Below are positions 5,923 to 43,056 of a stretch of 64,000 nucleotides of DNA, piece after piece. The notes beneath the pieces were generated by a model. The model worked only from the letters and a program-made list of their open reading frames with translations, had not been told where the DNA came from and searched no databases. The stretch lies in NCBI RefSeq assembly GCF_000955905.1, contig NZ_CP011097.1, positions 248,001 through 312,000 on the forward strand. Direction: 5' to 3'. Both the position numbers and the translations under genes were made by a program. The stretch is from Candidatus Nitrosotenuis cloacae. Lineage in GTDB: Archaea > Thermoproteota > Nitrososphaeria > Nitrososphaerales > Nitrosopumilaceae. The first letter of the stretch is position 1, and every line of letters begins with the position of its first letter.

Positions 5923-5944
5923 ATCCAAACGGATCTACGACTTG

Positions 5945-8719: not shown

Positions 8720-11700
8720 TTGCAAAAATTACCCCTGGCAATATTTTTGTCATTTATCTTGTTGTTTTCCGTAGTGCCGATTTCAGATGTTGATGCAAAA
8801 AAATCATCTGGCACACCGCTAAAAAAGACATCACAAAACTCTATATCAAAAATCGTTTGCGGTGACAAGCTTTGCTCTGAGATAAAACGGGATGGAAAAA
8901 GCGATCAACAAAGCAGGTTTTCTATTGGTGGTGTGGCTCAACAAGGTGTCTCTAGAGGTGGCGTGACACAGCAGGAATCTTTACTACAAGATGTTAATAC
9001 CGTGACAAATGGGACAACAACCGAGTCTGCACCAACAACCGAGTCTGCACCAACAACCGAGTCTGCACCAACAACCGAGTCTGCACCAACAACCGAGTCT
9101 GCACCAACAACCGAGTCTGCACCAACAACCGAGTCTGCACTCCCAACACTATCTATAGAAGACAAAACAGTAACCGAGGGAACTGGAACAAATCCTGGTC
9201 TCAGCCTCACAATAACTTCATCTGCTCCTGCACCTTCAGGCGGAATACGTGTTTCATTTACAACAAGCGATGGTACAGCAATAGCTGGTACACCAACACG
9301 TGATGCTACTGGTAAGCTATCTGGGTACACAGGAGATTATGCCACTATTCCTTCAGGAGCATCTATAGTAATTCCAGAAGGCCAAACTAGTATCATAATT
9401 AGACCGACAGTATTTCCAGATTCTATATCAGAATCAACCGAGACCTTCACAATAACAATATCCAACCCAACAGGTGCCACCATATCTGACGGTACCGCAA
9501 CAGTAACCATAACAGACGATGACGCATCCGGAACCACAGGAACTGGAACTACCGGCACATCTGGCTCTGCACTCCCAACACTATCTATAGAAGACAAAAC
9601 AGTAACCGAGGGAACTGGAACAAATCCTGGTCTCAGCCTCACAATAACTTCATCTGCTCCTGCACCTTCAGGCGGAATACGTGTTTCATTTACAACAAGC
9701 GATGGTACAGCAATAGCTGGTACACCAACACGTGATGCTACTGGTAAGCTATCTGGGTACACAGGAGATTATGCCACTATTCCTTCAGGAGCATCTATAG
9801 TAATTCCAGAAGGCCAAACTAGTATCATAATTAGACCGACAGTATTTCCAGATTCTATATCAGAATCAACCGAGACCTTCACAATAACAATATCCAACCC
9901 AACAGGTGCCACCATATCTGACGGTACCGCAACAGTAACCATAACAGACGATGACGCATCCGGAACCACAGGAACTGGAACTACCGGCACATCTGGCTCT
10001 GCACTCCCAACACTATCTATAGAAGACAAAACAGTAACCGAGGGAACTGGAACAAATCCTGGTCTCAGCCTCACAATAACTTCATCTGCTCCTGCACCTT
10101 CAGGCGGAATACGTGTTTCATTTACAACAAGCGATGGTACAGCAATAGCTGGTACACCAACACGTGATGCTACTGGTAAGCTATCTGGGTACACAGGAGA
10201 TTATGCCACTATTCCTTCAGGAGCATCTATAGTAATTCCAGAAGGCCAAACTAGTATCATAATTAGACCGACAGTATTTCCAGATTCTATATCAGAATCA
10301 ACCGAGACCTTCACAATAACAATATCCAACCCAACAGGTGCCACCATATCTGACGGTACCGCAACAGTAACCATAACAGACGATGACGCATCCGGAACCA
10401 CAGGAACTGGAACTACCGGCACATCTGGCTCTGCACTCCCAACACTATCTATAGAAGACAAAACAGTAACCGAGGGAACTGGAACAAATCCTGGTCTCAG
10501 CCTCACAATAACTTCATCTGCTCCTGCACCTTCAGGCGGAATACGTGTTTCATTTACAACAAGCGATGGTACAGCAATAGCTGGTACACCAACACGTGAT
10601 GCTACTGGTAAGCTATCTGGGTACACAGGAGATTATGCCACTATTCCTTCAGGAGCATCTATAGTAATTCCAGAAGGCCAAACTAGTATCATAATTAGAC
10701 CGACAGTATTTCCAGATTCTATATCAGAATCAACCGAGACCTTCACAATAACAATATCCAACCCAACAGGTGCCACCATATCTGACGGTACCGCAACAGT
10801 AACCATAACAGACGATGACGCATCCGGAACCACAGGAACTGGAACTACCGGCACATCTGGCTCTGCACTCCCAACACTATCTATAGAAGACAAAACAGTA
10901 ACCGAGGGAACTGGAACAAATCCTGGTCTCAGCCTCACAATAACTTCATCTGCTCCTGCACCTTCAGGCGGAATACGTGTTTCATTTACAACAAGCGATG
11001 GTACAGCAATAGCTGGTACACCAACACGTGATGCTACTGGTAAGCTATCTGGGTACACAGGAGATTATGCCACTATTCCTTCAGGAGCATCTATAGTAAT
11101 TCCAGAAGGCCAAACTAGTATCATAATTAGACCGACAGTATTTCCAGATTCTATATCAGAATCAACCGAGACCTTCACAATAACAATATCCAACCCAACA
11201 GGTGCCACCATATCTGACGGTACCGCAACAGTAACCATAACAGACGATGACGCATCCGGAACCACAGGAACTGGAACTACCGGCACATCTGGCTCTGCAC
11301 TCCCAACACTATCAATTAATTCCCCCTATCCAAAAAATGAAGGAACATCAACATCATCTTCCACTAATCCTTATACCGACTTTACGACTAACGTGTATCT
11401 AAGCTCATCATCTTCAACTCCAGTCTCATTTGACCGTCTTATACTTCCAATCACAACATCCGCTGATGATGTGAGCAGCTACCAAGCAATGACTCGACCT
11501 ACTATTGCACCAGGACAAACACAGCTTGGAATACCTCTCTACGTCAAAGCTGATTCGTTATCTGAGTCAAACGAGGGGATTGTTGTGATTATAAATAAAC
11601 CGGAAGGAGCCACGATTGAAAACAACATTGCTTTGGTAGAAATAAAAAACGATGATGGCACTACACAACCATCAAGATCGATATCCCTTCATCCTCAAGT

Positions 11701-12469
11701 ATCTATTCTAGAGGGAACAGATTCTAGCTCTAAACCTAGTCCGTCTGGCATAACTGTATCACTAAGCTCCCCATCTACATCGCCTGTCACATTTAGGATT
11801 TATGCACTGCCGAATACTGCTACTATGTCTCTTGGCACTACTCCAAATGCAAATACTGATGATTTTACAATCTCTACTAGCACTACAGTGACAATTCCAG
11901 CTGGCCAAACATTTGTCAATATACCGATGATGATTTATCCTGATTCTAGACCAGAATCAAACGAAACATTCACACTAGTACTCTATGGTATAACCGGTGC
12001 CGGAATTGGAGGACAAATAGTTTCAACTGTAACGATAATAGATGATGATTCCAGTTCTCCGCCAACTCTGAACCAAAACTTGCCTAAATTGGGAACTTGG
12101 GGCGCGGCTATTAAAGAGGGGACGACAAACGTTAATCCTACACCTACACAGGAAATGGTTATCTTCCTTGATACTCCTCCGCAAACACCTGTAAAGTTCA
12201 AGATTACAGATACTCCTGGCACTGCCACAAGGGGTACTGGTACTACCGATGCAAATGGTGATTATGTTTCATTTCCTGCCGACATGGTGTTTACCATACC
12301 TGCTGGCGTGACACAATATTCTCAACCAGTACCACCGATCATTAGGGATTCTGTATCAGAATCAAACGAAAACTTCCGAATCACACTCACCGATCCAATA
12401 GGTGCTACCCTAAGCACCGCATCGGAGGGTGGTAGTTATGCAACAATATCCATCACAAACGATGACTAA
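8720..12469 (+). CDS. Giant secreted Calx-beta repeat protein
   Basis: A 1249-residue protein with a TTG start after a TATA box. It has a signal peptide (about 1-26, ending DVDA), a C-G-D-K-L-C segment shared with the preceding paralogue, two G-x-V-x-Q-Q motifs, seven TTESA[PL] repeats, then eight Calx-beta-like domains. The first five domains (144 residues each) appear identical; the last three are diverged. Each domain shows the xGT...GDY...IPEGQ...SESxExFxIxIxxPxGA...IxDDD pattern of calcium-binding Calx-beta domains. It is likely a fibrous surface or adhesion protein. The identical repeats point to recent expansion, and the copy number may differ between strains or be mis-assembled. Confidence 0.8.
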   Translation: MQKLPLAIFLSFILLFSVVPISDVDAKKSSGTPLKKTSQNSISKIVCGDKLCSEIKRDGKSDQQSRFSIGGVAQQGVSRGGVTQQESLLQDVNTVTNGTTTESAPTTESAPTTESAPTTESAPTTESAPTTESAPTTESALPTLSIEDKTVTEGTGTNPGLSLTITSSAPAPSGGIRVSFTTSDGTAIAGTPTRDATGKLSGYTGDYATIPSGASIVIPEGQTSIIIRPTVFPDSISESTETFTITISNPTGATISDGTATVTITDDDASGTTGTGTTGTSGSALPTLSIEDKTVTEGTGTNPGLSLTITSSAPAPSGGIRVSFTTSDGTAIAGTPTRDATGKLSGYTGDYATIPSGASIVIPEGQTSIIIRPTVFPDSISESTETFTITISNPTGATISDGTATVTITDDDASGTTGTGTTGTSGSALPTLSIEDKTVTEGTGTNPGLSLTITSSAPAPSGGIRVSFTTSDGTAIAGTPTRDATGKLSGYTGDYATIPSGASIVIPEGQTSIIIRPTVFPDSISESTETFTITISNPTGATISDGTATVTITDDDASGTTGTGTTGTSGSALPTLSIEDKTVTEGTGTNPGLSLTITSSAPAPSGGIRVSFTTSDGTAIAGTPTRDATGKLSGYTGDYATIPSGASIVIPEGQTSIIIRPTVFPDSISESTETFTITISNPTGATISDGTATVTITDDDASGTTGTGTTGTSGSALPTLSIEDKTVTEGTGTNPGLSLTITSSAPAPSGGIRVSFTTSDGTAIAGTPTRDATGKLSGYTGDYATIPSGASIVIPEGQTSIIIRPTVFPDSISESTETFTITISNPTGATISDGTATVTITDDDASGTTGTGTTGTSGSALPTLSINSPYPKNEGTSTSSSTNPYTDFTTNVYLSSSSSTPVSFDRLILPITTSADDVSSYQAMTRPTIAPGQTQLGIPLYVKADSLSESNEGIVVIINKPEGATIENNIALVEIKNDDGTTQPSRSISLHPQVSILEGTDSSSKPSPSGITVSLSSPSTSPVTFRIYALPNTATMSLGTTPNANTDDFTISTSTTVTIPAGQTFVNIPMMIYPDSRPESNETFTLVLYGITGAGIGGQIVSTVTIIDDDSSSPPTLNQNLPKLGTWGAAIKEGTTNVNPTPTQEMVIFLDTPPQTPVKFKITDTPGTATRGTGTTDANGDYVSFPADMVFTIPAGVTQYSQPVPPIIRDSVSESNENFRITLTDPIGATLSTASEGGSYATISITNDD
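9017..9142 (+). repeat. Short coding repeat, 7 x 18 bp (TTESAP)
   Basis: Seven consecutive 18-bp units encode TTESAP six times and TTESAL once. They form a Thr/Ser/Pro linker between the N-terminal segment and the first Calx-beta domain. Confidence 0.85.
9134..11293 (+). repeat. Tandem array, 5 x 432 bp coding repeat
   Basis: Five units of 432 bp (9134-9565, 9566-9997, 9998-10429, 10430-10861, 10862-11293), identical as far as I can read, each encoding one Calx-beta domain plus a TTGTGTTGTSGSA linker. A 20-bp partial copy (to 11313) leads into the diverged domains. Lack of synonymous differences implies very recent duplication or ongoing gene conversion. Confidence 0.9.
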
Positions 12470-19049: not shown

Positions 19050-19166
19050 AATCTTTACCTAATCATTTGACGGACTCGTTTGAGATCTTATACGTAATAT
19101 ACGAAATTTTGTCTGATTCTGAAATGTTTGGAAATTAAATTAGAAATGTAATCAGAGCAGAAATTG

Positions 19167-19286: not shown

Positions 19287-20354
19287 ATGGATTATCATAA
19301 TTTTCATGGAAAAAACATTCCTCACATAGAAGTAAATCCAGACATGAAAATTGATGATCTAGTGGAGATCTATGCAAGCTCCGGCTACAATGCAAGACAG
19401 CTTGGAGAAGCCGCAAAACTGTTCCGCAAGATGATTGAAGATGATGCGACAATCTGTCTCACCATTGCGGGTGCCATGACACCTGTTGGCTTTGGAGGCC
19501 TATTCAAGGCACTTATCGAAAAGGGATTTGTTGACTGGATAATCTCTACTGGCTCTAATCTGTATCATGAGGATCATTTTGCGTGGAATTTGCCTGTAAA
19601 ACAAGGGCATTTTGAGGTTGATGATATGATCCTATATCAAAAAGACATTGTCAGAATAAGAGACGTCTACATCAAAGGCGAGGAAACTCTGAAAAAACAA
19701 GATACAATCGTGCAGAAAATGTTTGAGAATAACTTGTTTGAAAAACCATTCACTACTGCAGAATTTGCAAACTGGATGGGCAAATACTCAAAAGAACACT
19801 CGACTCACCCAGAGCGCAGTTTTGTAGTGTCTGCATATGATTACGATGTTCCGCTTTACATTTCAACCCTAAAGGACTCGTCACTTGCGCTTGATCTGGC
19901 ACCGCTCAGACTTGCCAACAAACCGTTCTCTGTTGACTTTGTTAGAGAAATAATAGAGCAGGCTGCAATTCTGTATAATTCAAAAAAGGCAGGAATTGTG
20001 GAAATTGGCGGCGGTGTTCCAAAAAACACTGCACAGCAAACTGGTCCATTGTTGGACCAAATTTTGGGCCTAGGCCACGGCGGACAAAATTATATCATCC
20101 AAATAACTGATGCCAGGCCAGATACCGGAGGCCTCTCTGGCGCAACACTGCAAGAAGGCAAGAGCTGGGGCAAAGTAAAAGACTCTCATGAAGATGTGAT
20201 AGTAGTTTATGCAGATGCAACAATTGCGTTTCCGGTTTTGTGTCTGTATGCACTTAGCATGGAAGGCCCAAGAAAGCCAAAACGACTATACAAAAAGCTG
20301 GACCAATACTACCAAAACCTGTCTGAGACTTATTTTAGCAAAGCAAAAAAGTAA
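19287..20354 (+). CDS. Deoxyhypusine synthase-like protein, divergent active site
   Basis: A 355-residue member of the deoxyhypusine synthase family. The NAD-fold pieces (TICLTIAGAMTPVGFGG; DWIISTGSNLYHED) and the catalytic lysine region GKSWGKVK (K296) are present. However, the GGGVxKHH active-site motif is GGGVPKNT, so the general-base His is absent, and the EFDGSxSGA loop is PDTGGLSGA. It therefore probably does not make deoxyhypusine; transfer of aminobutyl to another polyamine is possible. The authentic paralogue follows 112 bp downstream. Confidence 0.75.
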   Translation: MDYHNFHGKNIPHIEVNPDMKIDDLVEIYASSGYNARQLGEAAKLFRKMIEDDATICLTIAGAMTPVGFGGLFKALIEKGFVDWIISTGSNLYHEDHFAWNLPVKQGHFEVDDMILYQKDIVRIRDVYIKGEETLKKQDTIVQKMFENNLFEKPFTTAEFANWMGKYSKEHSTHPERSFVVSAYDYDVPLYISTLKDSSLALDLAPLRLANKPFSVDFVREIIEQAAILYNSKKAGIVEIGGGVPKNTAQQTGPLLDQILGLGHGGQNYIIQITDARPDTGGLSGATLQEGKSWGKVKDSHEDVIVVYADATIAFPVLCLYALSMEGPRKPKRLYKKLDQYYQNLSETYFSKAKK

Positions 20355-20466
20355 ATTTTTCCCAAGCTTACCAAATCTTTAGGCGCAAGTACAACGACAA
20401 GCTATTTGATAACCATACGACCATAAAATTTCAAGAAATTTATACTACATTCCAAACTACAATAGG

Positions 20467-21402
20467 ATGGAAGGCAATCGAGCAGTAAAAGACATTTCAA
20501 TAAAAGACGGAGATGACATTCAGAGTATCTTTAATCAAATGGCTCTGTCTGGCGGCTTTGAATCAAGAAACCTTGCCGACGGCCTTGAAATTCTATCAAC
20601 AATGATTAATGACAAGGAATGCGTCAAGTTCCTCTCATTTGTTGCAGCAATCACGTCCACCGGATTGCGTGGAATAATTTCCGATATGCTCAAGAAAAAA
20701 ATGTTTGATGTTGTAATTACCACATGTGGGGCACTGGACCACGACATTGCTAGATATTTCTCAAATTATCTGGAAGGCTCATTTACCTTAGACGATGCAG
20801 CATTATTGGAAAAAAATATCCATAGACTAGGCAATGTGCTTGTACCAATGGACAGCTATGGCCCAATAATTGAGGAAAAGATGCAGGCATTCTTGGAGGC
20901 GGCCTACAAGTCAGGTAAAAGGGAAATGTCCACTGCAGACATTACCAAAATGATAGGCGAAAATCTGGGTGAGGGCTCTTTTCTGTATTGGGCGGCCAAG
21001 AACAACATTCCAGTAGTGGTGCCGGGAATAGTGGATGGCGCAGTAGGCAGCCAGATCTGGATGTTTGCCCAAAAGCATAATGATTTCAAACTTAATGTGG
21101 TAGCAGACAGCGAGCTTCTCTCATCGATTGTCTTCAAGGCAAAAAAGTCCGGCGCATTCATGATGGGTGGTGGAATATCAAAGCATCATACCCTTTGGTG
21201 GAACCAATACCGAGACGGCCTTGATTATGCTGTCTACGTCACCACTGCACAAGAATTTGATGGAAGCCTTAGTGGCGCACTTGTCAGAGAGGCAATCTCA
21301 TGGGGCAAGGTAACACAGAATGCAAAACAAACCACAATTCATGCAGAAATAACTACAATCTTGCCGTTTCTTTATTCTGCACTTTTATCCAAAATAAAAT
21401 AA
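20467..21402 (+). CDS. dys: Deoxyhypusine synthase
   Basis: A 311-residue protein with the canonical motifs: GGGISKHH (general-base His), TAQEFDGSLSGA and EAISWGKV with catalytic K281. The enzyme transfers an aminobutyl group from spermidine (or, in some archaea, agmatine) to a lysine of aIF5A, an essential translation factor. It has its own TATA (AAATTTATAC, about 27 bp before the ATG). A divergent paralogue lies directly upstream and a ureohydrolase of the agmatinase family 7 kb downstream. Confidence 0.85.
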   Translation: MEGNRAVKDISIKDGDDIQSIFNQMALSGGFESRNLADGLEILSTMINDKECVKFLSFVAAITSTGLRGIISDMLKKKMFDVVITTCGALDHDIARYFSNYLEGSFTLDDAALLEKNIHRLGNVLVPMDSYGPIIEEKMQAFLEAAYKSGKREMSTADITKMIGENLGEGSFLYWAAKNNIPVVVPGIVDGAVGSQIWMFAQKHNDFKLNVVADSELLSSIVFKAKKSGAFMMGGGISKHHTLWWNQYRDGLDYAVYVTTAQEFDGSLSGALVREAISWGKVTQNAKQTTIHAEITTILPFLYSALLSKIK

Positions 21403-23708: not shown

Positions 23709-23860
23709 CCTCAGCAGATATTTCTAAAATTATTAAATCTTATCTGAGAAAAATTTTATTTTGTTAAAAATTTGAATTTGTGTGAGATCAATTTTCTTTG
23801 ATCGTTATTTTTGATCTCAATAAGTTTGGCTAGTTTTGTTTGTGGAACGTATACTACGTA

Positions 23861-23983: not shown

Positions 23984-25525
23984 GTGGTCGAGGTAAATGG
24001 TTATGGCATTGCAGTAGTTGCTTTTCTTGCCGTCTCACTAATTGTCGGAAGCCTGACGTACAAGCTAGTACAAAAAAGCGGTAGAAGACTAATCGTTGCA
24101 GGAAAAAGTCTGCCACTTGCCATGGTTGGAACAATGCTTGTGGCGCAAGCAGTCGATGGTAACTCGACTCTTGGTGCTATTGCACTCATCTATCAATTTG
24201 GTTTCTGGGCAGGTGTCGTCATACCGATCGGACTGGGAATATGTCTGTTAATGACTGGTGTATTTTATGGAAAAAAGATCAACAAAATGTCCATGTTCAC
24301 CTTGCCTGATTACTATTTCAGAAGATACGGAAATGCCGCGGAAGGAATGTCTGGCATTTTAATGATAATTAGTTTTACCATACTAGTCGCTGGAAATTTT
24401 GCTGCAAGCGGCTTCATCTTGGAGACCGCACTGGGAATACCGTTCCTGTGGGGAATTATTATTGCTGCACTCGTTGTCTTGACATATACAATTGCGGGAG
24501 GATTGTTTGCTTCCGCATATACCGATATTTTCCAAATTTATCTTGCAATTGGTGCATTTTGGGCAGCATTCATCTTCTTTGCAGGAGGATTCTCTGGAGT
24601 TGCATTTGATACAATTCTGGCAAGTGCACCGCCTGCGTATCTTGATCTGTCTGGACTCTTTGATGTAGCCAATGGTGCTTTGATCAACTGGGCCGGAATA
24701 TTGGCATTGGGATTGGGAGATATCGTTGCGCTAGACTTTATGGAAAGAGTGTTTGCTGCAAGAGACCCCAAGACTGCTCGTAGAGGATCATTTATGGCAG
24801 CAGGACTTACGTTCTTTACTGTATTGCCAGTTGGCATGCTGGGAATTGTGGCATTTCACTTTTTGCCGGGACTGGAGGATCCATTCCATGCGTTACCAGA
24901 CCTTGCTATGAATCACATGCCGTTTGCAATTGGCGCGGCAATTCTTATGGGCGTTCTTGGAGCTTCTATGTCTACTGCAAATGGTGGGTTGCTTGCTGTA
25001 TCTAGTGTTATTTCAAGGAACCTGCTTCAAAGAATTATCCGAAAACGTTGGCTAGGCAAAGAATCTTGGAACGACTCCAAGCTGTTGTGGATTACTAGAT
25101 TAGCTGTCATACCTGTAATGTTATCTGCACTTACACTTGGCTATCTTATGCCTCAGCCTGGAGTATATCTGATTCTTGCATTTGATCTTGTATTTGCAGG
25201 TGCACTTGCTCCTCTGACATTGGGATTGTTCTGGAAAAAATCAAACATGCCAGCAGCCATAGTATCACTAATTGTTGGATCCGCAATACGACTATTGATG
25301 TTCTTTGTCATCCCAGTAGAGTGGGCAGGCCTGGACACCATGATACCGCCAATGATCTCATTCCCGCTCTTTATCATAGTGGCCCTTGCTACTCAGAAAA
25401 AGTGGCCTGGCAAAGAAAGACACGATGTCAACGAGTATGTTCCACCAGAGGAAGACGTGATAATGGGTGAGGACCTCAAGCACTTCCAGTCTGCGGCAGC
25501 TGGTGGCAAGAGCTCAGCAATTTAG
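23984..25525 (+). CDS. Sodium:solute symporter (SSS family)
   Basis: 513 residues from the GTG at 23984. This start sits about 25 bp after a TATA (TTTATATAA near 23955); the 48 codons upstream in the ORF are A/T-rich and not protein-like. About 13 membrane helices. Family features include GRRLIVAGKSLPLAMVGTML, FTLPDYYFRRYG and TYTIAGGLFASAYTDIFQ, the conserved core of SSS transporters (LeuT fold, Na+-driven). SSS carriers in ammonia oxidisers can import urea, but nothing here fixes the substrate; polyamines or organic acids are equally possible. Confidence 0.8.
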   Translation: MVEVNGYGIAVVAFLAVSLIVGSLTYKLVQKSGRRLIVAGKSLPLAMVGTMLVAQAVDGNSTLGAIALIYQFGFWAGVVIPIGLGICLLMTGVFYGKKINKMSMFTLPDYYFRRYGNAAEGMSGILMIISFTILVAGNFAASGFILETALGIPFLWGIIIAALVVLTYTIAGGLFASAYTDIFQIYLAIGAFWAAFIFFAGGFSGVAFDTILASAPPAYLDLSGLFDVANGALINWAGILALGLGDIVALDFMERVFAARDPKTARRGSFMAAGLTFFTVLPVGMLGIVAFHFLPGLEDPFHALPDLAMNHMPFAIGAAILMGVLGASMSTANGGLLAVSSVISRNLLQRIIRKRWLGKESWNDSKLLWITRLAVIPVMLSALTLGYLMPQPGVYLILAFDLVFAGALAPLTLGLFWKKSNMPAAIVSLIVGSAIRLLMFFVIPVEWAGLDTMIPPMISFPLFIIVALATQKKWPGKERHDVNEYVPPEEDVIMGEDLKHFQSAAAGGKSSAI

Positions 25526-25529
25526 CTAG

Positions 25530-26561
25530 TTATCTTGCAAAGAAATTCTGTTTTTTCTTTTTTTTGATCTTACCTAGTATCTTGTTTTTGTAATGCATGG
25601 CCCTCATGTTGCTTGGATCGATTTCCAGCACCAGATCATAGTATTTTAGGGCCTCATCTAGGTTACCGCACTCTAAAAGCAAATAACCCTTGTAGCTTAG
25701 TGCGTACCCATATCCCGGTTCAACCTCGAGTGCTTTGTCGCAATAAATCAGTGCGGCCTCGTACTTTTCTTGGTGCGCTAAAACCCAAACCATCGTACAC
25801 AATGCATTGACGTGTCTTGGGTCTGCCTCGAGGGCTTTGTTGCAATATGTGATTGATTCCTCTGGCTTTTTTGTATGATGTAAAGCAACACCCATACTGT
25901 ATAGGGCGCGAACATTCTTGGGCTCTATTTCCAGTGCCTTACCAAGGTATGCTATTGCGTCCTCGTATTTTCTTATTCTATTATGCAAGATACCTTTGTG
26001 AAGATAAGCGTCCACATTTGTTGGATCAATTTCCAAGGCTTTGTCAAAAAAAGACGTAACGCCTTTTGGTGGTACGCCAAGCAAGTCCAGCACATAGCCC
26101 TTTGCGATTAGGGCACGAACATTTTTTGGATTATTATCCAAGGCCTTGGTGTAAAATGATAGTGCCTCCTCATATTTGCCACGCTTTTTTAGCTCCTCCC
26201 CATCATAGTATAGGCTCACCGAATTATCTCGCTGCATCTCTATGGCTCTGTTAATGAGAGTTATCGCCTCTTCATTTTTCTCAAGCTTGCCCAGTATCAA
26301 CCCTTTATTGTATAGTGCATCGGAATTGTTTGGATCAATTTCCAGTGCTTTATCAAAACATGTCAGTGAATCTTCATATTTTCCCATCTCTCTTAGAGCT
26401 AGTCCCTTGCGAAACCATGCGGCACCGTTTTTTGCATCTGCATCTATGATCTTATCAAAATATGCTATTGCTTCTTTGAAATTGTTTTTTTTAGAAAGAG
26501 AAATTCCTTTACGGATAAGATCATCTGGAGTCTTTGTAGCTCGAAAAAACATGGAAATCAT
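25530..26561 (-). CDS. Tetratricopeptide repeat (TPR) protein
   Basis: A 343-residue protein made of about nine consecutive 34-residue TPRs with the consensus A...G..L...GKYEEAL..YDKALEIDP, plus a short basic C-terminus. TPR solenoids are protein-protein interaction scaffolds; no catalytic domain or signal peptide is present, so it is probably cytoplasmic. An alternative start is the ATG at 26552 (MFFRATK). It ends 4 bp from the convergent symporter gene. Confidence 0.85.
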   Translation of the reverse strand: MISMFFRATKTPDDLIRKGISLSKKNNFKEAIAYFDKIIDADAKNGAAWFRKGLALREMGKYEDSLTCFDKALEIDPNNSDALYNKGLILGKLEKNEEAITLINRAIEMQRDNSVSLYYDGEELKKRGKYEEALSFYTKALDNNPKNVRALIAKGYVLDLLGVPPKGVTSFFDKALEIDPTNVDAYLHKGILHNRIRKYEDAIAYLGKALEIEPKNVRALYSMGVALHHTKKPEESITYCNKALEADPRHVNALCTMVWVLAHQEKYEAALIYCDKALEVEPGYGYALSYKGYLLLECGNLDEALKYYDLVLEIDPSNMRAMHYKNKILGKIKKKKKQNFFAR

Positions 26562-26983: not shown

Positions 26984-27544
26984 ATGCCAGGCAAAGGATA
27001 TTCAACAATTGGACTAAAGCCTGATCTTTTGACAAGATTGCACAACATCACAGATACGTATTATCCGGGAATGTTTCTTCCAAGCACTCTGATAATCATG
27101 ATGAATGAAGTCAAGCGCGGATACTATACCGTAAACCTGCATAACATTAGATTGGATCTGTCGGGACGCTACAATTCCATTACTATTCGATTGGATGTGG
27201 ATGAGTGGCTCAAGGAAAACTACAAAGAACTAAAGGAAAAATACGAACAAAAATACCACGTTAGGTGCTTTAGCCGGTTTACCAGTTATTTTCTGGCAAA
27301 TCTTTTTGAATCAAAGCTTGATGCGCAGAATCATGTAATTCGACTAAAAGAGTCTAATTTTGAGTGGCTCCAAGAAGAATATTCCAAGTTCAAATCAAAC
27401 AGCAAGCCTGAATCAGTGCCTACATTTGCAAAGTTTGCTGACATTTATCTCAACGAACTATCTGATAAGATCAAAGTAGCAAAAGAGGTTCTAACTATGC
27501 CGAATTTTTCCAGCCTGGCTTCACAAAGTATTGAAAAAAATTAA
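26984..27544 (+). CDS. Hypothetical protein with three RHH-like segments
   Basis: A 186-residue protein that seems built from three related units of about 50-60 residues: STIGLKPDLLTRLHNI...FLPSTLIIMMNEV, SITIRLDVDEWLKENYKEL...CFSRFTSYFLANLF, and HVIRLKESNFEWLQEEYSKF...TFAKFADIYLNEL. Each has a short strand, a helix starting near a conserved Trp or Leu, and a second helix, the pattern of ribbon-helix-helix DNA binders. A covalently linked multi-RHH DNA-binding protein is a reasonable guess. The stop overlaps the convergent gene by 4 bp. Confidence 0.5.
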   Translation: MPGKGYSTIGLKPDLLTRLHNITDTYYPGMFLPSTLIIMMNEVKRGYYTVNLHNIRLDLSGRYNSITIRLDVDEWLKENYKELKEKYEQKYHVRCFSRFTSYFLANLFESKLDAQNHVIRLKESNFEWLQEEYSKFKSNSKPESVPTFAKFADIYLNELSDKIKVAKEVLTMPNFSSLASQSIEKN

Positions 27545-27792
27545 AGTGGAGTCATTGTATCTAGCAGTCTTGCATTTGTGACTTGGCCGTCTTTTTCCTG
27601 TATTTCAAGATCTACTGTATATTTTAGACCGTTTAGCATGAATCTGACTTGAACATCCCATGCTTGCCTTGGTCCCTTTTCAGGAATCTGGAATGTTTCG
27701 TTGACCTTAAAATCAGTCACGTTTCCATAAAGTGCGCCAATTACTCTTTTTGACTCTCTCTCAATATCTTCTTTTGAGCTGACACTGGCCAT
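27541..27792 (-). CDS. Small hypothetical alpha/beta protein
   Basis: An 83-residue protein. An N-terminal helix (KEDIERESKRVIGALYG) is followed by four strands (VTDFKVNETFQIP, AWDVQVRFML, LKYTVDLEIQEKDG, VTNARLLDTM), a cystatin/PepSY-like order. No catalytic or export motif. Function unknown; it converges with the RHH-like gene. Confidence 0.55.
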   Translation of the reverse strand: MASVSSKEDIERESKRVIGALYGNVTDFKVNETFQIPEKGPRQAWDVQVRFMLNGLKYTVDLEIQEKDGQVTNARLLDTMTPL

Positions 27793-27964: not shown

Positions 27965-27981
27965 TTTGTCAAGTTGACAAA
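27965..27981. promoter_or_regulatory. 17-bp palindrome before the ureohydrolase operon
   Basis: TTTGTCAAGTTGACAAA is a perfect palindrome around a central G. It lies 4-20 bp after the likely TATA and about 53 bp before the ATG, overlapping the expected transcription start: a repressor-type operator position. Confidence 0.55.
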
Positions 27982-28033
27982 TAAAATACGTAGTTTACTT
28001 GGAATGTTTAATTATTTGCGTGCGATGATATAG

Positions 28034-29164
28034 ATGATAAAAATGGGAATGGAATTTTATGGTGAGGACTACAATGGTGCCGATGTTGCACCATTTGTTG
28101 GCATCAACACATTCCTACATCTGCCCTGGATCAGGACCCACAAGGAACTAGTCCAGGTAAAGCCAGATGTTGCAATTATTGGTGAGCCATTTGATTTTGG
28201 AACTACTATTCGTCCTGGAGCGCGTTATGGCCCGCGAGCAATTCGTGCGGCATCTACCATTCCGTCTCCACCATATGAGCGATTTAACATAGAAACAGGA
28301 GCGGATCCATTTGGAACCTTCAAAACAGTAGATTATGGAGACGTCCAAGTCTCACCAGGTGATGTAATTGAATCTCACAAAAGAATGACTCAAAAAGTCA
28401 AAGAGGTTCTCGATGAGGAAGGAATTCCCGTAATGTTGGGCGGGGATCACTCTATAACATTTGCAAACGTTCGCGCCTTTGCTAAAAAATACAAAAACAT
28501 TGGCATGATTCATTTTGATACTCACGCAGATTGTGCACCTCAAGGACTAACCGGCTACAAGTACGACCATGGAGCACACATCAGACGAATCATGGAGATG
28601 GGCTGCCTCAAAGGAAAGAACTACACACTGGTTGGTCCGCGTGGATACTGGCCGGGACGTGACTTGTACAAGTGGATGTCGGATCAGGACTTCCAGTGGT
28701 TTACCATGCTTGATGTTGAAGAATTGGGAATTGACATGATTGCAAAAGAAATCGCCGACAGGGCAAACGATGGCACTGATGCAGTTTACCTTAGCTGGGA
28801 CATTGACTCTTTTGATCCATCTTATGCACCAGGAACTGGTGAGCCGGAACCAAACGGCCTTACCTCAAGGGAGGGAATGAGAATGGTCAGATTACTATCC
28901 AAATCGTTTGATCCAGACAGGTTTGCAATGGACCTGGTGGAAGTAGCTCCAGCATATGATGTGAGTGATAGCAGCTCCTACAACGGTGGTATCACATCTG
29001 GACTAGGACAACGACTGATCATAGAACTCTTGGCTGGACTATCACTAACAAAGAGAGGCTTGGAAAATGGTGACCCTGTACGACCGCACGAATATCGTGG
29101 AACCGGAAACACATATCACTTTAATAAGGATATTCCGCGTCCAAAAATACCAAAGCGAGATTGA
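28034..29164 (+). CDS. Ureohydrolase (agmatinase/guanidinase-like arginase family)
   Basis: A 376-residue arginase-family enzyme. The binuclear-metal ligands are all visible: H139 in GGDHS, D162/H164/D166 in FDTHADC, and D256/D258 in SWDIDSFDP. Such enzymes hydrolyse a guanidino group to urea plus an amine (agmatinase) or ammonia (guanidinase). It is longer than many agmatinases (about 300-320). Start: ATG at 28034, with another ATG five codons later. It heads a tight operon with a urease-gamma-like protein (4-bp overlap) and a nickel/cobalt-type permease, which hints that the metal is nickel rather than manganese. The urea product could feed the urease at 38-43 kb. Confidence 0.85.
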   Translation: MIKMGMEFYGEDYNGADVAPFVGINTFLHLPWIRTHKELVQVKPDVAIIGEPFDFGTTIRPGARYGPRAIRAASTIPSPPYERFNIETGADPFGTFKTVDYGDVQVSPGDVIESHKRMTQKVKEVLDEEGIPVMLGGDHSITFANVRAFAKKYKNIGMIHFDTHADCAPQGLTGYKYDHGAHIRRIMEMGCLKGKNYTLVGPRGYWPGRDLYKWMSDQDFQWFTMLDVEELGIDMIAKEIADRANDGTDAVYLSWDIDSFDPSYAPGTGEPEPNGLTSREGMRMVRLLSKSFDPDRFAMDLVEVAPAYDVSDSSSYNGGITSGLGQRLIIELLAGLSLTKRGLENGDPVRPHEYRGTGNTYHFNKDIPRPKIPKRD

Positions 29165-29550
29165 CTCTCATCAAGATAACCGTAAAGGGGGAACCAGATG
29201 TTTCTCCTTTTACAAGAACTTTTCAGTATTCCAGCAAAGCAGACGAGCAGATCTTTACCAATCTCATAAGTATGGTAAAGGACAAGCTGGACCGAAATCT
29301 TCGAATAAACATCAACGAAGCCATTACCGTATTTTCCGCACTAGTTGTTTCTGAGCTTAAGGGGGGCAAATCAATTGAGCAAATCCAAAAAAACGCATCC
29401 ATTCTACTAAACCCAGAACAAGTAATGATAGGAGTTCCAGAGACCTTGCAACAAATGTCATTTGAGATAACACTGGATGATAATACCAAAAGACTGATTG
29501 TACTGAATACTCCAATTAAAATCTCGGACTATATCCTAAAGCCTGCTTGA
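29161..29550 (+). CDS. Urease gamma-subunit-like protein (stand-alone)
   Basis: A 129-residue protein with a TTG start overlapping the ureohydrolase stop. From residue 25 it follows the urease gamma (UreA) pattern: RNLRININEAI matches [11 protein letters not shown] of the true UreA in this window, KGGKSIEQIQ matches [40 protein letters not shown] matches [30 protein letters not shown]. It carries about 25 extra N-terminal residues. No beta or alpha urease gene is adjacent and the real ureA lies at 39929. It is probably a partner of the ureohydrolase. I know of no described function for this arrangement. Confidence 0.7.
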   Translation: MTLIKITVKGEPDVSPFTRTFQYSSKADEQIFTNLISMVKDKLDRNLRININEAITVFSALVVSELKGGKSIEQIQKNASILLNPEQVMIGVPETLQQMSFEITLDDNTKRLIVLNTPIKISDYILKPA

Positions 29551-29560
29551 GGAAATAATC

Positions 29561-30319
29561 ATGATAGAAGAACTAATCAAAGAACTGCCAACAGCAACAC
29601 CCTTTTTCGTGCTGGTATCTGGGTTTTTGATAGGACTCTCACACGCCTTTGAGCCTGATCATGTTGTTGCAGTGGCAACACAAAACTCGAAACTAGCACA
29701 AAAAAGCTCACTTAGGCGTTTTCGACAAATCAGCTCGGGTGCTCTGAGAAGCTCGATTCTTGGTGCACTGTGGGGGGCAGGACACACCTCTAGCCTGGTC
29801 TTGGTGAGTTTGCTGATCTTTGTGTTTTCGATGAGTATTCCTGATACGATGTTTGGTAACTTTGAGTTTGGAGTGGGCATGATGCTTGTGACCCTTGGAT
29901 TCTTTACATATCTTAAACGGGGCCTAAAACAAAAACACATCCACACTCACACTCATGACGATCTAGTCCACACACATCCCCATACTCATGATAAAGAGCA
30001 CACTCACGGACACCGATCATATCTTATCGGGTGTGTACATGGATTAGCCGGAAGTGGAAGCCTTGTTGTTTTGGCGCTCTCGACTCTACATAATTTGGAA
30101 ACCATTCTATCATTCATTCTGGTCTTTGGGGTTGGCTCGATAATCGGAATGATGCTGGTAAGCAGCGCAATAGGACTGCCGTTTTCATTTACGGTTTATT
30201 CCGATCGAATCAACAAAATCCTGCGCTATTCGGTTGGCTCACTGAGTATCATAATTGGCATTGACATCATGTACAATATCATAAGCACTGGAAGTTTTTT
30301 TGGACTGAGCATTAACTAG
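29561..30319 (+). CDS. Nickel/cobalt-type permease (NicO/UreH-like) with His-rich loop
   Basis: A 252-residue membrane protein with six or so helices. HAFEPDHVVAVAT in helix 1 corresponds to the metal-binding H-x-x-x-D-H motif of Ni/Co transporters, and WGAGHTSSL to the second conserved His. The loop at residues 126-151 holds eleven histidines (HIHTHTHDD, HTHPHTHDKEHTHGH), a probable metal-gathering segment. The ATG follows the previous stop by 10 bases and a GAGGA ribosome-binding site. The operon context suggests supply of nickel to the ureohydrolase and possibly urease; export for detoxification cannot be excluded. Confidence 0.75.
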   Translation: MIEELIKELPTATPFFVLVSGFLIGLSHAFEPDHVVAVATQNSKLAQKSSLRRFRQISSGALRSSILGALWGAGHTSSLVLVSLLIFVFSMSIPDTMFGNFEFGVGMMLVTLGFFTYLKRGLKQKHIHTHTHDDLVHTHPHTHDKEHTHGHRSYLIGCVHGLAGSGSLVVLALSTLHNLETILSFILVFGVGSIIGMMLVSSAIGLPFSFTVYSDRINKILRYSVGSLSIIIGIDIMYNIISTGSFFGLSIN

Positions 30320-37851: not shown

Positions 37852-39564
37852 TCAGAACAAGTTGTATAGTCTTGCAAGTGGCACACTAGTGGCTGGCTTT
37901 GTTGTAGCTATTTTGCTGTCAATTTTTACCTGATACGTCTCTGGATCGATTTCTATTTTTGGCGTGGTGTCATTGAGAACCATGTCTTTTTTGCCAATGT
38001 TTCTACAATTCCTTACTGCAAGGAATTTCTTTGAGACACCAAGCTTGTCCTCAAGGCCGTTTTCTAGTGCAAGTTTTGATGTGAATACAAAGGAGATCGC
38101 TTGCTTTGCTTTTCCCAATGCTCCAAACATCGGCCTGTAATAGACTGGCTCTGTGGTGGGAATTGATGCATTTGGGTCACCCATCAAGGAATATGCAATC
38201 ATTCCACCCTTGATTATCATTTTTGGCTTTGCGCCAAAAAATTGCGGAGACCAGACTATGATATCTGCTATTTTGCCTGGCTCCAAGGATCCGACATATT
38301 CAGATATTCCATGAGTTATTGCGGGATTGATTGTTATTTTTGCCAAGTAACGCTTTACTCTGAAATTGTCATTGTCACCTGTTTCATTTTGGTGCCTCCC
38401 TGAGATCTTTTTCATCTTGTCTGCGCTCTGCCAGTTCCTAGTTGTTACCTCGCCAATTCTGCCCATTGCTTGACTATCCGATGACATCATGCTTAGTGCG
38501 CCAATGTCATGAAGTATGTCCTCTGCAGCTATTGTCTCTGCGCGGATTCTTGATTCGGCAAATGAGACGTCTTCTGGAACGGAAGAATTGAGGTGATGAC
38601 AGACCATCATCATGTCAAGATGCTCATCAAGTGTGTTTACCGTAAATGGTCTGGTGGGGTTTGTAGATGATGGCAAGATGTTTGCCTCACTCGCTATTTT
38701 CATAATGTCTGGGGCATGGCCTCCGCCTGCGCCCTCTGTGTGGTATGTGTGAATTGCCCTTCCGGCAATTGCAGCTATGGTATCATCAACATAGCCACAC
38801 TCGTTTAGTGTGTCCGTGTGTATGGCAACCTGGGTATCTGTCTTGTCGGCAACTCGTAGTGCCGCATCTATTGTTGCTGGCGTGGTACCCCAGTCCTCGT
38901 GCAGCTTGAGCCCACACGCACCCTCCCGTATCTGATCAATCAGTGATGCTTCTTCGGAGTCATTGCCCTTTCCCAAAAATCCAAAATTCATGGGAAATTC
39001 TTCTGTAGCCTCTATCATTTTGTGTATGTACCATTTTCCTGGAGTGCATGTTGTTGCATTGGTCCCATCTGCCGGACCCGTTCCGCCACCGATCATGGTG
39101 GTAGTACCGCCACAAATTGCGTCGATTGTCTGCTGTGGAGAAATAAAATGAATGTGCGTATCCACCGCACCGGGGGTGCAAATCAAATGTTCGCCAGAAA
39201 TCACCTCGGTGTTTGATGATATTATAATGTCAACTCCGTCCATGATGTTTGGATTGCCAGCCTTTCCAATACCTGCAATCTTTCCATCCTTGACTCCAAT
39301 GTCTGCCTTGATTATTCCAAGGATCGGATCAAGCACAATTGCGTTTGTAATTACCAGATCCACTGAATCATTGCGGCTAGTGCCACTTGCCTGTGCCATT
39401 CCATCACGTATGCTCTTTCCCCCACCAAAGACTGCCTCATCTCCATACCTGAGCAAGTCCTTTTCAATTTCTATGATTAGGTCCGTGTCTCCTAGCCTTA
39501 CCTTATCTCCAATGGTGGGGCCAAAAAGATCCACATACTTTTTTCTTGGAATCTCTAGTGTCAT
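37852..39564 (-). CDS. ureC: Urease alpha subunit
   Basis: A 570-residue catalytic subunit, full length. The di-nickel ligands are present: H137/H139 (DTHIHF), carbamylated K220 ([10 protein letters not shown]), H249 (AIHTDT), H275 ([11 protein letters not shown]) and D363 (SSDSQAMGR). The flap Cys322-His323 (VCHHL) is also kept. It hydrolyses urea to ammonia and carbamate in the cytoplasm, feeding ammonia oxidation. Last gene of ureABC; its start overlaps the ureB stop by 4 bp. Confidence 0.96.
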
Positions 39565-39932
39565 GCGCCCCGAAATCCTCCCTTTTTGGCCTTCTCTAGT
39601 GCATCTGATTTCTTTTCAGACAATGGTCCATTAACCAGTCCACTAAATCCAAAAACGATTCTTTTTCCACCGTATTCTGTTAGCTCGACGCTTTTTGTCT
39701 CGCCCGGCTCAAATCGAATAGATGTGCCTGATGCGATATTGAGATGAAATCCATATGCCTGCTCACGCACAAACTCAAGGGCCTTGTTTGACTCAAAAAA
39801 GTGTGTATGAGAGCCAACCTGAATCGGCCTATCGCCGGTGTTTTTGACTGATATTGTGATTGTTTTTTTTCCCTGGTTTGCAATTATTGGTTTCTCAGAG
39901 ATGAAATATTCGCCAGGTATCATATGCATCAC
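39561..39932 (-). CDS. ureB: Urease beta subunit
   Basis: A 123-residue structural subunit with the typical [44 protein letters not shown] start and [12 protein letters not shown] core. The C-terminal ~20 residues are Lys-rich, as usual. It overlaps ureA and ureC by 4 bp each (ATGA), so the three are translationally coupled in equal amounts. Confidence 0.95.
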
Positions 39933-40231
39933 ACAATTGGATCATGGACTGTGACCAGCTTTGTTCCGTCATCAAAAGTAGCTTCGACTTGTATGGTGTG
40001 GATTATTTCCGGCACTCCTGGCAGGACATCATTCTTTGTTAGAACTCTTCTGCCGGAGCTCATCAAGTCTGCAACGGACTTGCCGTCCCTTGCCCCTTCT
40101 AGTATATGATCAGTTATAATGGCAACTGCCTCTGGATGATTAAGCTTGAGGCCTCTTGTTTTTCTCTTGCGTGCAAGCTCTGCTGCCAAAAAAATATGTA
40201 ATTTATCTATCTCCCTTGGAGTCAAAAACAT
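39929..40231 (-). CDS. ureA: Urease gamma subunit
   Basis: A 100-residue subunit with the classic [35 protein letters not shown] opening and [26 protein letters not shown] end. First gene of the minus-strand ureABC unit; its promoter region is shared with ureEFGD. A second, unlinked gamma-like protein is encoded at 29161. Confidence 0.95.
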
Positions 40232-40309
40232 GCTTTGTTTTGATGGATCTTGTATTTAATAATTCTAAGAGAGAAAAAGTATAACTTTACAAAATTCTAT
40301 TATTGATCA
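40232..40309. promoter_or_regulatory. Divergent urease promoter region
   Basis: This 78-bp spacer separates ureA and ureE. AGTATAAC at 40278-40285 lies about 28 bp before the TTG of ureE. On the other strand TTATTAAATAC at about 40254-40264 lies about 28 bp before the ureA ATG. Both transcripts would be leaderless. I see no clear palindrome. Confidence 0.5.
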
Positions 40310-40807
40310 TTGCTTAAGGTTGAAAAAATTATAGGAAATGTTTTTGAGAATCCTGAGCTTGCAAAAGAATTCGAGTCTAATTCATACAATGAAAACTACA
40401 AGACAGTAAGCATTTCACGCTATGATCTTGAAAAAACAAGACTAAAGCAAAAAGCATCTGATGGCACACAAATCGGGATTAATCTTGATGGTGGCAAAAA
40501 AATGGCGCACGGAGACGTGTTTTATGGTGATGATGTAAAAGTCCTAATACAACAAATCCCAGAGCAAACAATCTTGGTAAGGTTTGCAGGCCTTGAGCCA
40601 AAACTTCTCGTCCTAATTGGGCACATCATAGGCAATCTGCACAGGCCTGTCTCTTTGGAGGCTGATTCTATCTCATTTCCTATTCATGATAAAGGGGAAA
40701 TTGATCTGTTTAGGACGCTATTTCGGGACTATGTGGATAAAATCGAGCTAATTATAGAGGAGAAAATTTTTCAGCCTCACAAATCAATGAATGTCCATGA
40801 GCACTGA
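40310..40807 (+). CDS. ureE: Urease accessory protein (nickel metallochaperone)
   Basis: A 165-residue UreE-like protein. The N-terminal domain (residues about 1-80) is followed by the metal-binding domain with PEQTILVRFAGLEPKLLVLIGHIIGNLHRPVSLEADSISFPI, where the His of GHIIGNLH matches the nickel-binding region. The C-terminus has only three histidines (FQPHKSMNVHEH), not a long His tail. TTG start 28 bp after a TATA. It overlaps ureF by 17 bp. Confidence 0.88.
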   Translation: MLKVEKIIGNVFENPELAKEFESNSYNENYKTVSISRYDLEKTRLKQKASDGTQIGINLDGGKKMAHGDVFYGDDVKVLIQQIPEQTILVRFAGLEPKLLVLIGHIIGNLHRPVSLEADSISFPIHDKGEIDLFRTLFRDYVDKIELIIEEKIFQPHKSMNVHEH

Positions 40808-41489
40808 CTTTTCCAGCCTCAGTATGATGCAGCTATCTGACTCTTTCTTCCCAGCTGGGCTCTATACAATGTCAAATGGGCTTGAAACCCTATACCACCA
40901 AAAGATGGTAATCAATGCAGATGGCGTAAAAGAGCTGATTCAAACGTATTATCTGCAGCAAGTGGGGCCTGCCGACTGTGTAGCGCTTGCAAATGCATAT
41001 GATTTTGCAATTCATGGGGATCTTGGTGGTGTCATGTTGGTTGATGATATTATTTGCAAAATCAAACTGGTAAAGGAGCAGCGAGAGGCATCGATGCGAT
41101 CCGGAAGACAGCTCATCAAGTGTGTCTTAGCACTTGGGAATAACCCGCTCATCACACAATATCACAATGAAATCATAAAATCTCACACCCCTGGGACATA
41201 TCCAGTATCTTTTTCCGTTGCCGCACAAGCATTTGGCATATCAAAACAAAATGCTTGTCTGATGTTGTTTTATGGATTTGGAGTGAGTATAGTCGGAGCT
41301 GCACTGCGCCTTGGAATAATACAGCACATTGAAAGCCAGCAAATACTAGACTCACTCAAGCCAATAATCAGTGAACAAGTAAACAAGTACATCTCAAAAC
41401 CATATGATCAAATTTGGCAGTTCTCGCCACAAGCGGACATTTTTCAGATGCACCATGAAAAAATGGAAGCAAAAATGTTCATAACATAA
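40791..41489 (+). CDS. ureF: Urease accessory protein UreF
   Basis: A 232-residue, all-helical protein with the family start LSMMQLSDSFFPAGLYTMSNGLET and a middle region around HTPGTYPVSFSVAAQAFGISKQNACLMLFYGF. UreF joins UreD and UreG on apo-urease and gates nickel insertion. It overlaps ureE and precedes ureG by 11 bp with an AGGAG-like ribosome-binding site. Confidence 0.9.
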   Translation: MSMSTDFSSLSMMQLSDSFFPAGLYTMSNGLETLYHQKMVINADGVKELIQTYYLQQVGPADCVALANAYDFAIHGDLGGVMLVDDIICKIKLVKEQREASMRSGRQLIKCVLALGNNPLITQYHNEIIKSHTPGTYPVSFSVAAQAFGISKQNACLMLFYGFGVSIVGAALRLGIIQHIESQQILDSLKPIISEQVNKYISKPYDQIWQFSPQADIFQMHHEKMEAKMFIT

Positions 41490-41500
41490 GGAGAAAGACA

Positions 41501-42151
41501 ATGCCAAAAAGAATCCCAAGAATTGGAATCGGCGGCCCAGTTGGCTCTGGAAAAAGCATGCTGATTGAAAAAATAGTTCCAGTGCTTGCAAAGCGTGGCT
41601 ATAGAATCTGTGTCATATCAAATGATGTCATCTCAAAAGAAGATGCAAACAGAATCAGAAAAAACCTGGCAACAGAGCAGGGATTGCTGCCTGAAAACAT
41701 GGTAATTGGAATTGCCACCGGCGGATGCCCACACACTGCAATACGTGAAGACCCCTCCATGAATTTGGCACTAATTGAGGAAATCGAGCAAGAGCATACT
41801 GAGCTTGACTTGATAATTCTTGAAAGCGGCGGTGATAATGTAATGACCACATTCAGTCCGGCTCTGGCGGATTATTTTATTTACATAGTTGATGTCTCAG
41901 GCGGAGACAAGTATCCAAGAAAGGGAGGACTCGGAATAGAATCATGTGATCTGCTGGTGATTAACAAAATTGATCTTGCTGGACTGATCAATGCCGACCT
42001 TTCAGTCATGGACAGGGATGCAAAAACACTCCGCAAAGGAAAACCGCACGTGTTTGTAAATTGCAAGAATGACACCGGCATAGAACAAGTAGTCAGTCAC
42101 ATTGTAGAGGATCTGCTTTTTGAGGAATTGCCAAAGGCGCATTACACATGA
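41501..42151 (+). CDS. ureG: Urease accessory GTPase UreG
   Basis: A 216-residue SIMIBI-class GTPase. P-loop GGPVGSGKSML, the metal-binding ATGGCPHTA (Cys-Pro-His), ESGGDN and the G-specificity NKID are all in place. GTP hydrolysis by UreG drives nickel delivery to urease. Being near a ureohydrolase with a urease-gamma-like partner, it might also serve that enzyme (inference). It overlaps ureD by 4 bp. Confidence 0.95.
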   Translation: MPKRIPRIGIGGPVGSGKSMLIEKIVPVLAKRGYRICVISNDVISKEDANRIRKNLATEQGLLPENMVIGIATGGCPHTAIREDPSMNLALIEEIEQEHTELDLIILESGGDNVMTTFSPALADYFIYIVDVSGGDKYPRKGGLGIESCDLLVINKIDLAGLINADLSVMDRDAKTLRKGKPHVFVNCKNDTGIEQVVSHIVEDLLFEELPKAHYT

Positions 42152-43056
42152 TTCCACTAGGAAAGCTGGAAAAAATACCGGCAGAGTTTGAGCAATACCT
42201 ACAAGATGATTCCAATATTGTTGAAAAAACAGGCATTCTGAAAATCTCACTAGAGATGGACCAAACAAAAAACAAGACCATAGTGATACATCAATATTCC
42301 AAGGCCCCACTCCTTACGCAAAAAGCGCTACATTACGATGTCGCAAATCCATCAATGGCTTATCTGTTTTTGATGTCATCCTCAGGAGGAATTCTCCAAG
42401 GTGATAGATATCACATCGAAATATCGGTAAAAAACAAAGGAATTGCAAACATCACCACACAGGGCGCTACACGAATCTACAAAATGGATTCCAACTACGC
42501 AACCCAGTTTGTGGACATTGATGTGGATGATAATTCCTATCTTGAATTTCTACCAGATCAAATCATTCCGTACAAAAAATCCAGATATTTCCAGCAAGTG
42601 CAAATAACTACAGGATTCGACTCTACATTGGTATATTCAGAGGTGATAACTCCTGGGCGTGTTGCCATGGGGGAATTGTTTGATTATGATCTATGTTATC
42701 TCAGGTTGACTGCAAAAAACAAAGGCGGCAAAATTCTATTCATGGATTCTGCCCGACTTGATCCAAAAGAGCAGCAATTTAGCCAAATTGGAGTTTTAGG
42801 AACCAAGTCTGTTTTTGGAATCCTTTACATCATAACAAAAAAGGAACAACTAGAACAAATCTCAACTGATATAGACGTAATCTTGGATAATGTTGAGACA
42901 ATTGGTGGCTACTCATTTCTACCAGAAGACTCTGGGTTGGTTGTACGACTGATTGGGAATTCCTCTGAAGACATCAAAGCCGTCATACATGACTGTGTGA
43001 GGGTTGTAAGAAAGTACATCCTGAATTCTACATTTGATCAAATTCGGAAAACCTAG
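42148..43056 (+). CDS. ureD: Urease accessory protein UreD/UreH
   Basis: A 302-residue, beta-rich protein with the family hallmarks SSSGGILQGDRYHIEISVK, TTQGATRIYKM and YLEFLPDQIIPYKKSRYFQQ. UreD forms the scaffold and nickel tunnel on apo-urease with UreF and UreG. It ends the ureEFGD unit. The 114-bp gap after it (43057-43170) contains no gene I can support. Confidence 0.9.
   Translation: MIPLGKLEKIPAEFEQYLQDDSNIVEKTGILKISLEMDQTKNKTIVIHQYSKAPLLTQKALHYDVANPSMAYLFLMSSSGGILQGDRYHIEISVKNKGIANITTQGATRIYKMDSNYATQFVDIDVDDNSYLEFLPDQIIPYKKSRYFQQVQITTGFDSTLVYSEVITPGRVAMGELFDYDLCYLRLTAKNKGGKILFMDSARLDPKEQQFSQIGVLGTKSVFGILYIITKKEQLEQISTDIDVILDNVETIGGYSFLPEDSGLVVRLIGNSSEDIKAVIHDCVRVVRKYILNSTFDQIRKT

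Follow-up and report, generated by a model that had tools for sequence, protein, structure and literature searches.

What does a gene of urease-gamma descent do directly behind a gene for an arginase-family enzyme, next to a nickel-type permease gene and a few kilobases from a complete urease cluster? The question is raised by a window (here the whole stretch of DNA analysed, 64,000 nucleotides) of Candidatus Nitrosotenuis cloacae, whose genome is a single contig of 1.62 Mb and whose order is that of the ammonia-oxidizing archaea (AOA). Named close relatives include Nitrosarchaeum, Nitrosotenuis, Nitrosopumilus, Cenarchaeum, Nitrosotalea, Nitrososphaera and Nitrosocosmicus. The genes that pose the question are the following.

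28034–29164, plus strand: ureohydrolase of the arginase family, 376 amino acids (PF00491, 276 bits against a cut-off of 22)
29161–29550, plus strand: gamma2, a divergent urease-gamma paralogue (PF00547, 47.7 bits against a cut-off of 23.9)
29561–30319, plus strand: NicO/HupE-like nickel-type permease (PF03824, 28.4 bits against a cut-off of 27.7, a marginal match)
37852–43056, both strands: complete urease cluster, ureC-ureB-ureA on the minus and ureE-ureF-ureG-ureD on the plus strand, 7.5 kb downstream of the operon and the presumed consumer of released urea

Coordinates and Pfam matches confirm that the first three genes, all on the same strand, form one operon with a 4-bp overlap (TTGA; gamma2 starts with TTG) between ureohydrolase and gamma2, and a 10-bp gap between gamma2 and the permease gene, as an earlier note on this DNA had described. 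The true start of the ureohydrolase is likely to be the ATG at 28043, because its orthologues begin with MGMEFYG. The enzyme belongs to the arginase family by its profile match and by all six metal ligands (H139, D162, H164, D166, D256 and D258, from alignment to 9FEK); the ligands, which the earlier note had called intact, are invariant columns in the clade alignment. Cys167, beside the ligand Asp166, is likewise invariant in the clade.

Gamma2 falls short of the UreA equivalog cut-offs (43 against 82.3, and 52 against 123), and no ureB or ureC adjoins it within the window. Its AlphaFold (AF2) model (pLDDT 91) finds urease gamma as the best PDB match (4fur, E 4e-7), and predicts that the UreA fold is kept, with an added N-terminal beta-hairpin. 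The UreA signature (LTPRE..DKL, RGLKLN, EGARDG and QVEATF.DG) is largely lost, and little of the UreA conservation remains beyond N..E, a GVPE loop and PI. In a tree with many unresolved inner forks, gamma2 and UreA occupy opposite sides of one branch (support 100/98), and the copy nearest to UreA is that of genome G038. Judged from these comparisons, gamma2 is an ancient duplicate of UreA. Mean pairwise identity is 0.85 for the ureohydrolase, 0.72 for UreA and 0.38 for gamma2. Because UreE, UreF and UreD also evolve fast (27–49% identity in distant pairs), gamma2 behaves more like a maturation protein than a urease subunit; and a tight, fixed interface is not suggested, since an enzyme conserved at 85% faces a partner conserved at 38%.

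The ureohydrolase was found in 92 of 400 AOA genomes, covering 25 genera in three families. All 92 have a urease-gamma-family gene, and the ureohydrolase occurs in none of the 235 genomes that have no such gene, counts that do not represent independent events because the genomes are related. A second urease-gamma-family match is restricted to ureohydrolase genomes. Among 61 relatives, an orthologue of the ureohydrolase, with an identity of at least 76%, and a divergent gamma occur in exactly the same 12 genomes, all of which have a true urease, and nine further urease-positive genomes have neither the ureohydrolase nor gamma2. Flanks were taken from 93 loci; of the 88 that could be scored, 82 have gamma2 directly behind the ureohydrolase, and the two genes overlap by 4 bp in 48 of 81 pairs and by 1 bp in 14. 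This gene order, conserved in three archaeal families, is not due to chance. The earlier note had proposed gamma2 as a partner of the ureohydrolase and had asked whether all three genes travel together across the AOA. It turns out that the two form an evolutionarily linked pair, and that the permease is no obligate part of the system: a NicO gene follows gamma2 in 35 of the 82 loci and is absent from the other 47. The pair looks specific to the AOA, because position 270, which is Glu in the AOA enzyme, is Thr in every relative from outside the order for which the motif was read (identity of these relatives at most 41%), and because none of seven flanks of these relatives contains a gamma-like open reading frame (ORF).

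Gamma2 is absent from six loci with an intact ureohydrolase (genomes G231, G325, G273, G174, G142 and G134), so it is not universally required. Three of the six keep a NicO frame directly downstream of the ureohydrolase, and transposase-like reading frames lie directly behind the enzyme gene in G142 (locus L147). The ureohydrolase of G038 (L056, 8021–9337) has a C-terminal, His-rich tail in which 12 of 67 residues are His. Such a tail was considered as a stand-in for a missing gamma2 and rejected, since none of the six loci has one. In G038 the ureohydrolase, gamma2, NicO, ureA, ureB and ureC genes, and then the accessory genes (EFGD), run along one strand.

By Pfam, 13 of the 92 ureohydrolase genomes show only the divergent gamma. 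Among those checked, the fragmented assemblies G154, G227, G228, G326, G232, G284 and G362 contain ureC or urease accessory genes; G202, G169, G186, G234, G247 and G339 appear urease-negative. Genus g60, without UreA or UreC by Pfam, was a candidate for gamma2 in a urease-negative lineage; it was rejected on reading the contigs of three of its genomes, all of which contain urease accessory genes and two of which have a ureC truncated at a contig end. No urease-negative AOA with the pair is thus established, the apparent cases that could be checked being contig breaks. With a reservation for the six apparently urease-negative genomes, the rule is that gamma2 implies the ureohydrolase, and the ureohydrolase implies urease. 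It is therefore very plausible, as the earlier note had supposed, that the ureohydrolase releases urea for the nearby urease, because the pair is linked and the enzyme always shares its genome with a urease-gamma-family gene.

The conserved neighbourhood is larger than the three genes, and a symporter and a shared operator-like site belong to it. The features upstream of the operon are listed below.

23996–25525, plus strand: sodium:solute symporter (PF00474; the ORF is listed from 23840, and a start near 23996 is inferred)
25530–26561, minus strand: TPR protein, a conserved neighbour of the ureohydrolase
26984–27544, plus strand: candidate regulator with beta-alpha-alpha repeats (tandem ribbon-helix-helix-like; AF2 pLDDT 79.5)
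27541–27792, minus strand: small conserved protein of 83 amino acids, adjoining the ureohydrolase in Nitrosopumilaceae-type loci
27988–28000, plus strand: palindromic operator-like site ACGTAGTTTACTT (ACGTA-N3-TACGT with one mismatch), upstream of the ureohydrolase
23847–23859, plus strand: perfect copy ACGTATACTACGT of the operator, upstream of the symporter, and the sole perfect copy in the genome
23929–23941, plus strand: second copy upstream of the symporter
19092–19104, plus strand: weak copy, upstream of a homospermidine/deoxyhypusine-synthase-like gene (19287–20354)

Among the 61 relatives, the symporter is present in 10 of the 12 that have the ureohydrolase and in only one of the other 49, and it lies within 7 kb of the ureohydrolase in 46 of 49 well-covered loci. 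Of the nine genomes with urease but no ureohydrolase, just one encodes the symporter, so its substrate belongs with the ureohydrolase and not with urease. Its best PDB matches are high-affinity choline transporters, a likeness that would suit a cationic substrate.

The operator-like site of the ureohydrolase lies just upstream of a TATA-like TTTAATTATT (28007–28016). With at most one mismatch, the site occurs upstream of the ureohydrolase in 53 of 83 cases (64%) and upstream of the symporter in 28 of 66 (42%), compared with 3% for random stretches and 0% for urease genes. The window contains four sites against 0.26 expected, a number reached in none of 100 shuffles, and the whole genome contains 13. 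The nine outside the module all lie inside ORFs; all four intergenic copies are in the module, two at the symporter, one at the ureohydrolase and one at the homospermidine-synthase-like gene. The last gene was rejected as a module member, because its operator is not conserved in relatives. The earlier note had pointed to an upstream palindrome, TTTGTCAAGTTGACAAA. This 17-nt palindrome does exist (at about 27965–27981), and it was rejected as a regulatory site because its exact copy occurs only in one relative, the 99%-identical L061, a diverged, similar palindrome being found in one other; the conserved element is the palindrome at 27988–28000. Of 49 well-covered loci, 42 have the protein encoded at 26984–27544 close to the module, and no solved structure in the PDB matches it significantly (best E 0.06). 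Beta-alpha-alpha repeats are typical of ribbon-helix-helix (RHH) regulators, and to go by its model this protein is probably the regulator that reads the shared operator.

From these results we propose the following explanation. The sodium symporter would import a guanidino compound that is probably cationic, its hydrolysis by the ureohydrolase would yield urea and an amine, and urease would convert the urea to ammonia; the symporter gene and the ureohydrolase operon would stand under one operator, to which the RHH-like protein encoded nearby would probably bind. Gamma2, a duplicate of UreA, would now be an accessory protein of the ureohydrolase, serving in maturation or docking, and no longer a urease subunit. 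Most likely it would give the ureohydrolase access to the nickel machinery of urease (UreE/F/G/D, the only one of its kind found in the genome), which would then load the enzyme, and NicO would raise the nickel supply where it is present. The explanation is built on the linkage, the co-occurrence, the shared operator-like site, the fold and descent of gamma2 from UreA, its signature loss and fast evolution, and the absence of HypA; the substrate class, the metal, the physical interaction, the nickel transfer and the regulator are what we infer. We consider an import-and-cleave module that feeds urease likely, and an action of gamma2 on the ureohydrolase seems fairly probable. The whole explanation, with catabolic module, accessory gamma2 and nickel loading together, we hold to be somewhat short of an even chance.

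As to the nickel itself, no HypA match over the cut-off was found among 16 genomes, and the one strong match of the UreG/HypB kind in the genome of this window is UreG itself. Together with the fast evolution of gamma2, these results favour a docking role during nickel loading over any other single mechanism for it, and on urease the gamma domain flanks the site at which UreD docks (PMC10121161). A nickel link is indirectly supported by the 35 loci with NicO, by the His-rich tail in G038 and by the parallel with HupE-type permeases in published operons of nickel ureohydrolases. The permease has a His-rich loop (HIHTHTH...HTHPHTH), passes the family threshold marginally, and is a putative Ni2+ carrier. 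Against the nickel reading, the metal ligands of the ureohydrolase are the same as in manganese enzymes, and urease could be the only enzyme that the NicO gene serves. That gamma2 is an adaptor for nickel loading of the ureohydrolase is thus offered as a tentative idea, and we regard as rather doubtful the fuller picture of a nickel ureohydrolase loaded by UreDEFG through a repurposed urease gamma, in which one metal-insertion system would serve two unrelated enzymes and allow the use of guanidino compounds.

The same facts can be read without nickel. Gamma2 might belong to a manganese ureohydrolase as a stable, non-catalytic subunit, or regulate it allosterically, NicO supplying urease only. 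The translational coupling of the two genes and the patchiness of NicO fit such a subunit, and known heteromeric ureohydrolases require a second subunit (PMC11399263); however, a subunit with a mean identity of 38% beside an enzyme with 85% does not, nor does the His-rich tail of the G038 enzyme, and we consider this reading unlikely. Less probable still is that gamma2 is a scaffold through which the ureohydrolase docks to urease, with direct transfer of urea between the two enzymes. The descent from UreA, the restriction of the pair to genomes with a urease-gamma-family gene and the run of the G038 genes together with ureABC would agree with a scaffold, but the UreA signature is largely lost in gamma2, the operator is not common to urease genes, and six urease-positive lineages have lost gamma2 while keeping the ureohydrolase.

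Our preferred reading, cleavage of an imported guanidino compound, also has to be set against more familiar ureohydrolases. The best PDB sequence match is the guanidinobutyrase GbuA of Pseudomonas aeruginosa (3NIO, 179.7 bits), which has Thr at the position of Glu270, and in a profile comparison guanidinobutyrase (193.6 bits, the best match) and the guanidinase GdmH (191.8 bits) score nearly equally. The enzyme might therefore be an unrecognized guanidinase, AOA growing on guanidine: alignment to the Nitrospira guanidinase shows T58, H179 and E303 at matching positions, and comammox guanidinases are likewise without linked nickel chaperones. However, of the two GdmH residues Thr97 and Trp305 (Synechocystis numbering) only the Thr (T58) is present; the specificity Trp, at a position held by Thr in arginase, is replaced by Glu270, which is invariant across the AOA clade. 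At the Rfam gathering threshold, 23000–43500 contains no match to a guanidine riboswitch, an element that is common though not universal upstream of GdmH. In a published screen, genes for guanidine degradation were not found in AOA (PMC11410670), and we judge a guanidinase improbable. The acidic Glu270 weakly points to a cationic substrate, and the proposed guanidino compound is a guess from this residue and from the symporter's likeness to choline transporters. Least probable of all is an ordinary agmatinase operon of polyamine synthesis with gamma2 as a functionless relic, in spite of the name SpeB/agmatinase in the literature and of the homospermidine-synthase-like gene with its weak operator copy 8 kb upstream, because the enzyme fails the agmatinase cut-offs (TIGR01230, 161 against 174.3; NF002564, 209 against 302) while a second arginase-family gene of the same genome (G000:C1:815292) passes TIGR01230 (213 against 174), because its occurrence is patchy and bound to that of urease, which is not the pattern of a housekeeping enzyme, and because the gamma2 frame is open and its order kept in three families. 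The enzyme labelled SpeB/agmatinase in AOA is thus probably not the agmatinase.

Compared with known systems, the nearest published parallel is that of the metformin and dimethylguanidine hydrolases (MefH/DmgH), whose operons comprise ureohydrolase genes, hypA, hypB and a HupE permease gene (PMC11399263). There, as here, a ureohydrolase gene adjoins a HupE/NicO-type nickel permease gene and an operon-encoded partner; the partner there is a second ureohydrolase-fold subunit, accompanied by HypA/HypB, whereas here it has a urease-gamma fold and there is no HypA. A ureohydrolase with an operon-encoded partner is thus a known type, and it is the partner that is unusual here. GdmH (Synechocystis Sll1077, 7ESR/7OI1; Nitrospira inopinata, 9FEK) shares the arginase fold, the six ligands and the active-site Thr and Glu, and in the comammox nitrifier it also feeds urea to urease; in contrast, it has Trp305/313 in place of Glu270, and the present locus has neither riboswitch nor HypA but a urease-gamma paralogue. 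Gamma2 itself resembles UreA in fold and descent and differs from it in the lost signature, the extra hairpin, the low mean identity and its place behind a ureohydrolase without ureB or ureC. In NS-delta soil AOA, a symporter (SSS) clustered with SpeB was interpreted as a urea transporter with an agmatinase (PMC11131427, 2024). This is probably the same locus, a symporter beside an enzyme annotated as agmatinase, and the passage on it in that paper mentions no gamma2, permease or operator. The earlier note's description of the system as previously undescribed hence applies to gamma2, a urease-gamma paralogue linked to a ureohydrolase having no mention in the open-licence papers searched, and not to the symporter–SpeB neighbourhood.

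The AOA are among the most abundant nitrifiers. Those that carry urease often also carry this co-regulated-looking set of an importer, a ureohydrolase and a fast-evolving urease-gamma copy. Besides ammonia, the only substrates listed as proven for ammonia oxidizers are urea and cyanate, plus guanidine in comammox (PMC11410670). A conserved importer and a urea-releasing enzyme tied to urease would add a further organic nitrogen source for AOA, and those with the module probably feed on a guanidine-type nitrogen compound. The urease-subunit copy most likely helps to fit the ureohydrolase with its metal; if it does so by delivering nickel, one metal-insertion system would have been extended to a second enzyme.

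Several minor observations were made. The ureohydrolase of G122 is split by an in-frame stop (L129, 7331–8479), and single stops within the aligned stretch of the enzyme occur also in G296, G359 and G302. The 83-amino-acid protein (27541–27792, minus strand) has no Pfam match over the cut-off and lies behind ureC in many loci (for example, L120, L122 and L126); it is possibly a further urease-related gene. At 39120–39408, on the plus strand, a match to the Rfam 5' ureB sRNA (RF02514, 68 bits) runs antisense to the ureC coding sequence, and is probably mere homology of urease coding sequence. Two adjacent genes of the deoxyhypusine-synthase family fill 19287–21402, matching a homospermidine biosynthesis protein (473 against 450) and a deoxyhypusine synthase. 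Finally, a large secreted-type ORF (8720–12469) contains several near-identical tandem units of 432 bp, Calx-beta-like by eye, and is adjoined by a related ORF at 5942–8578.
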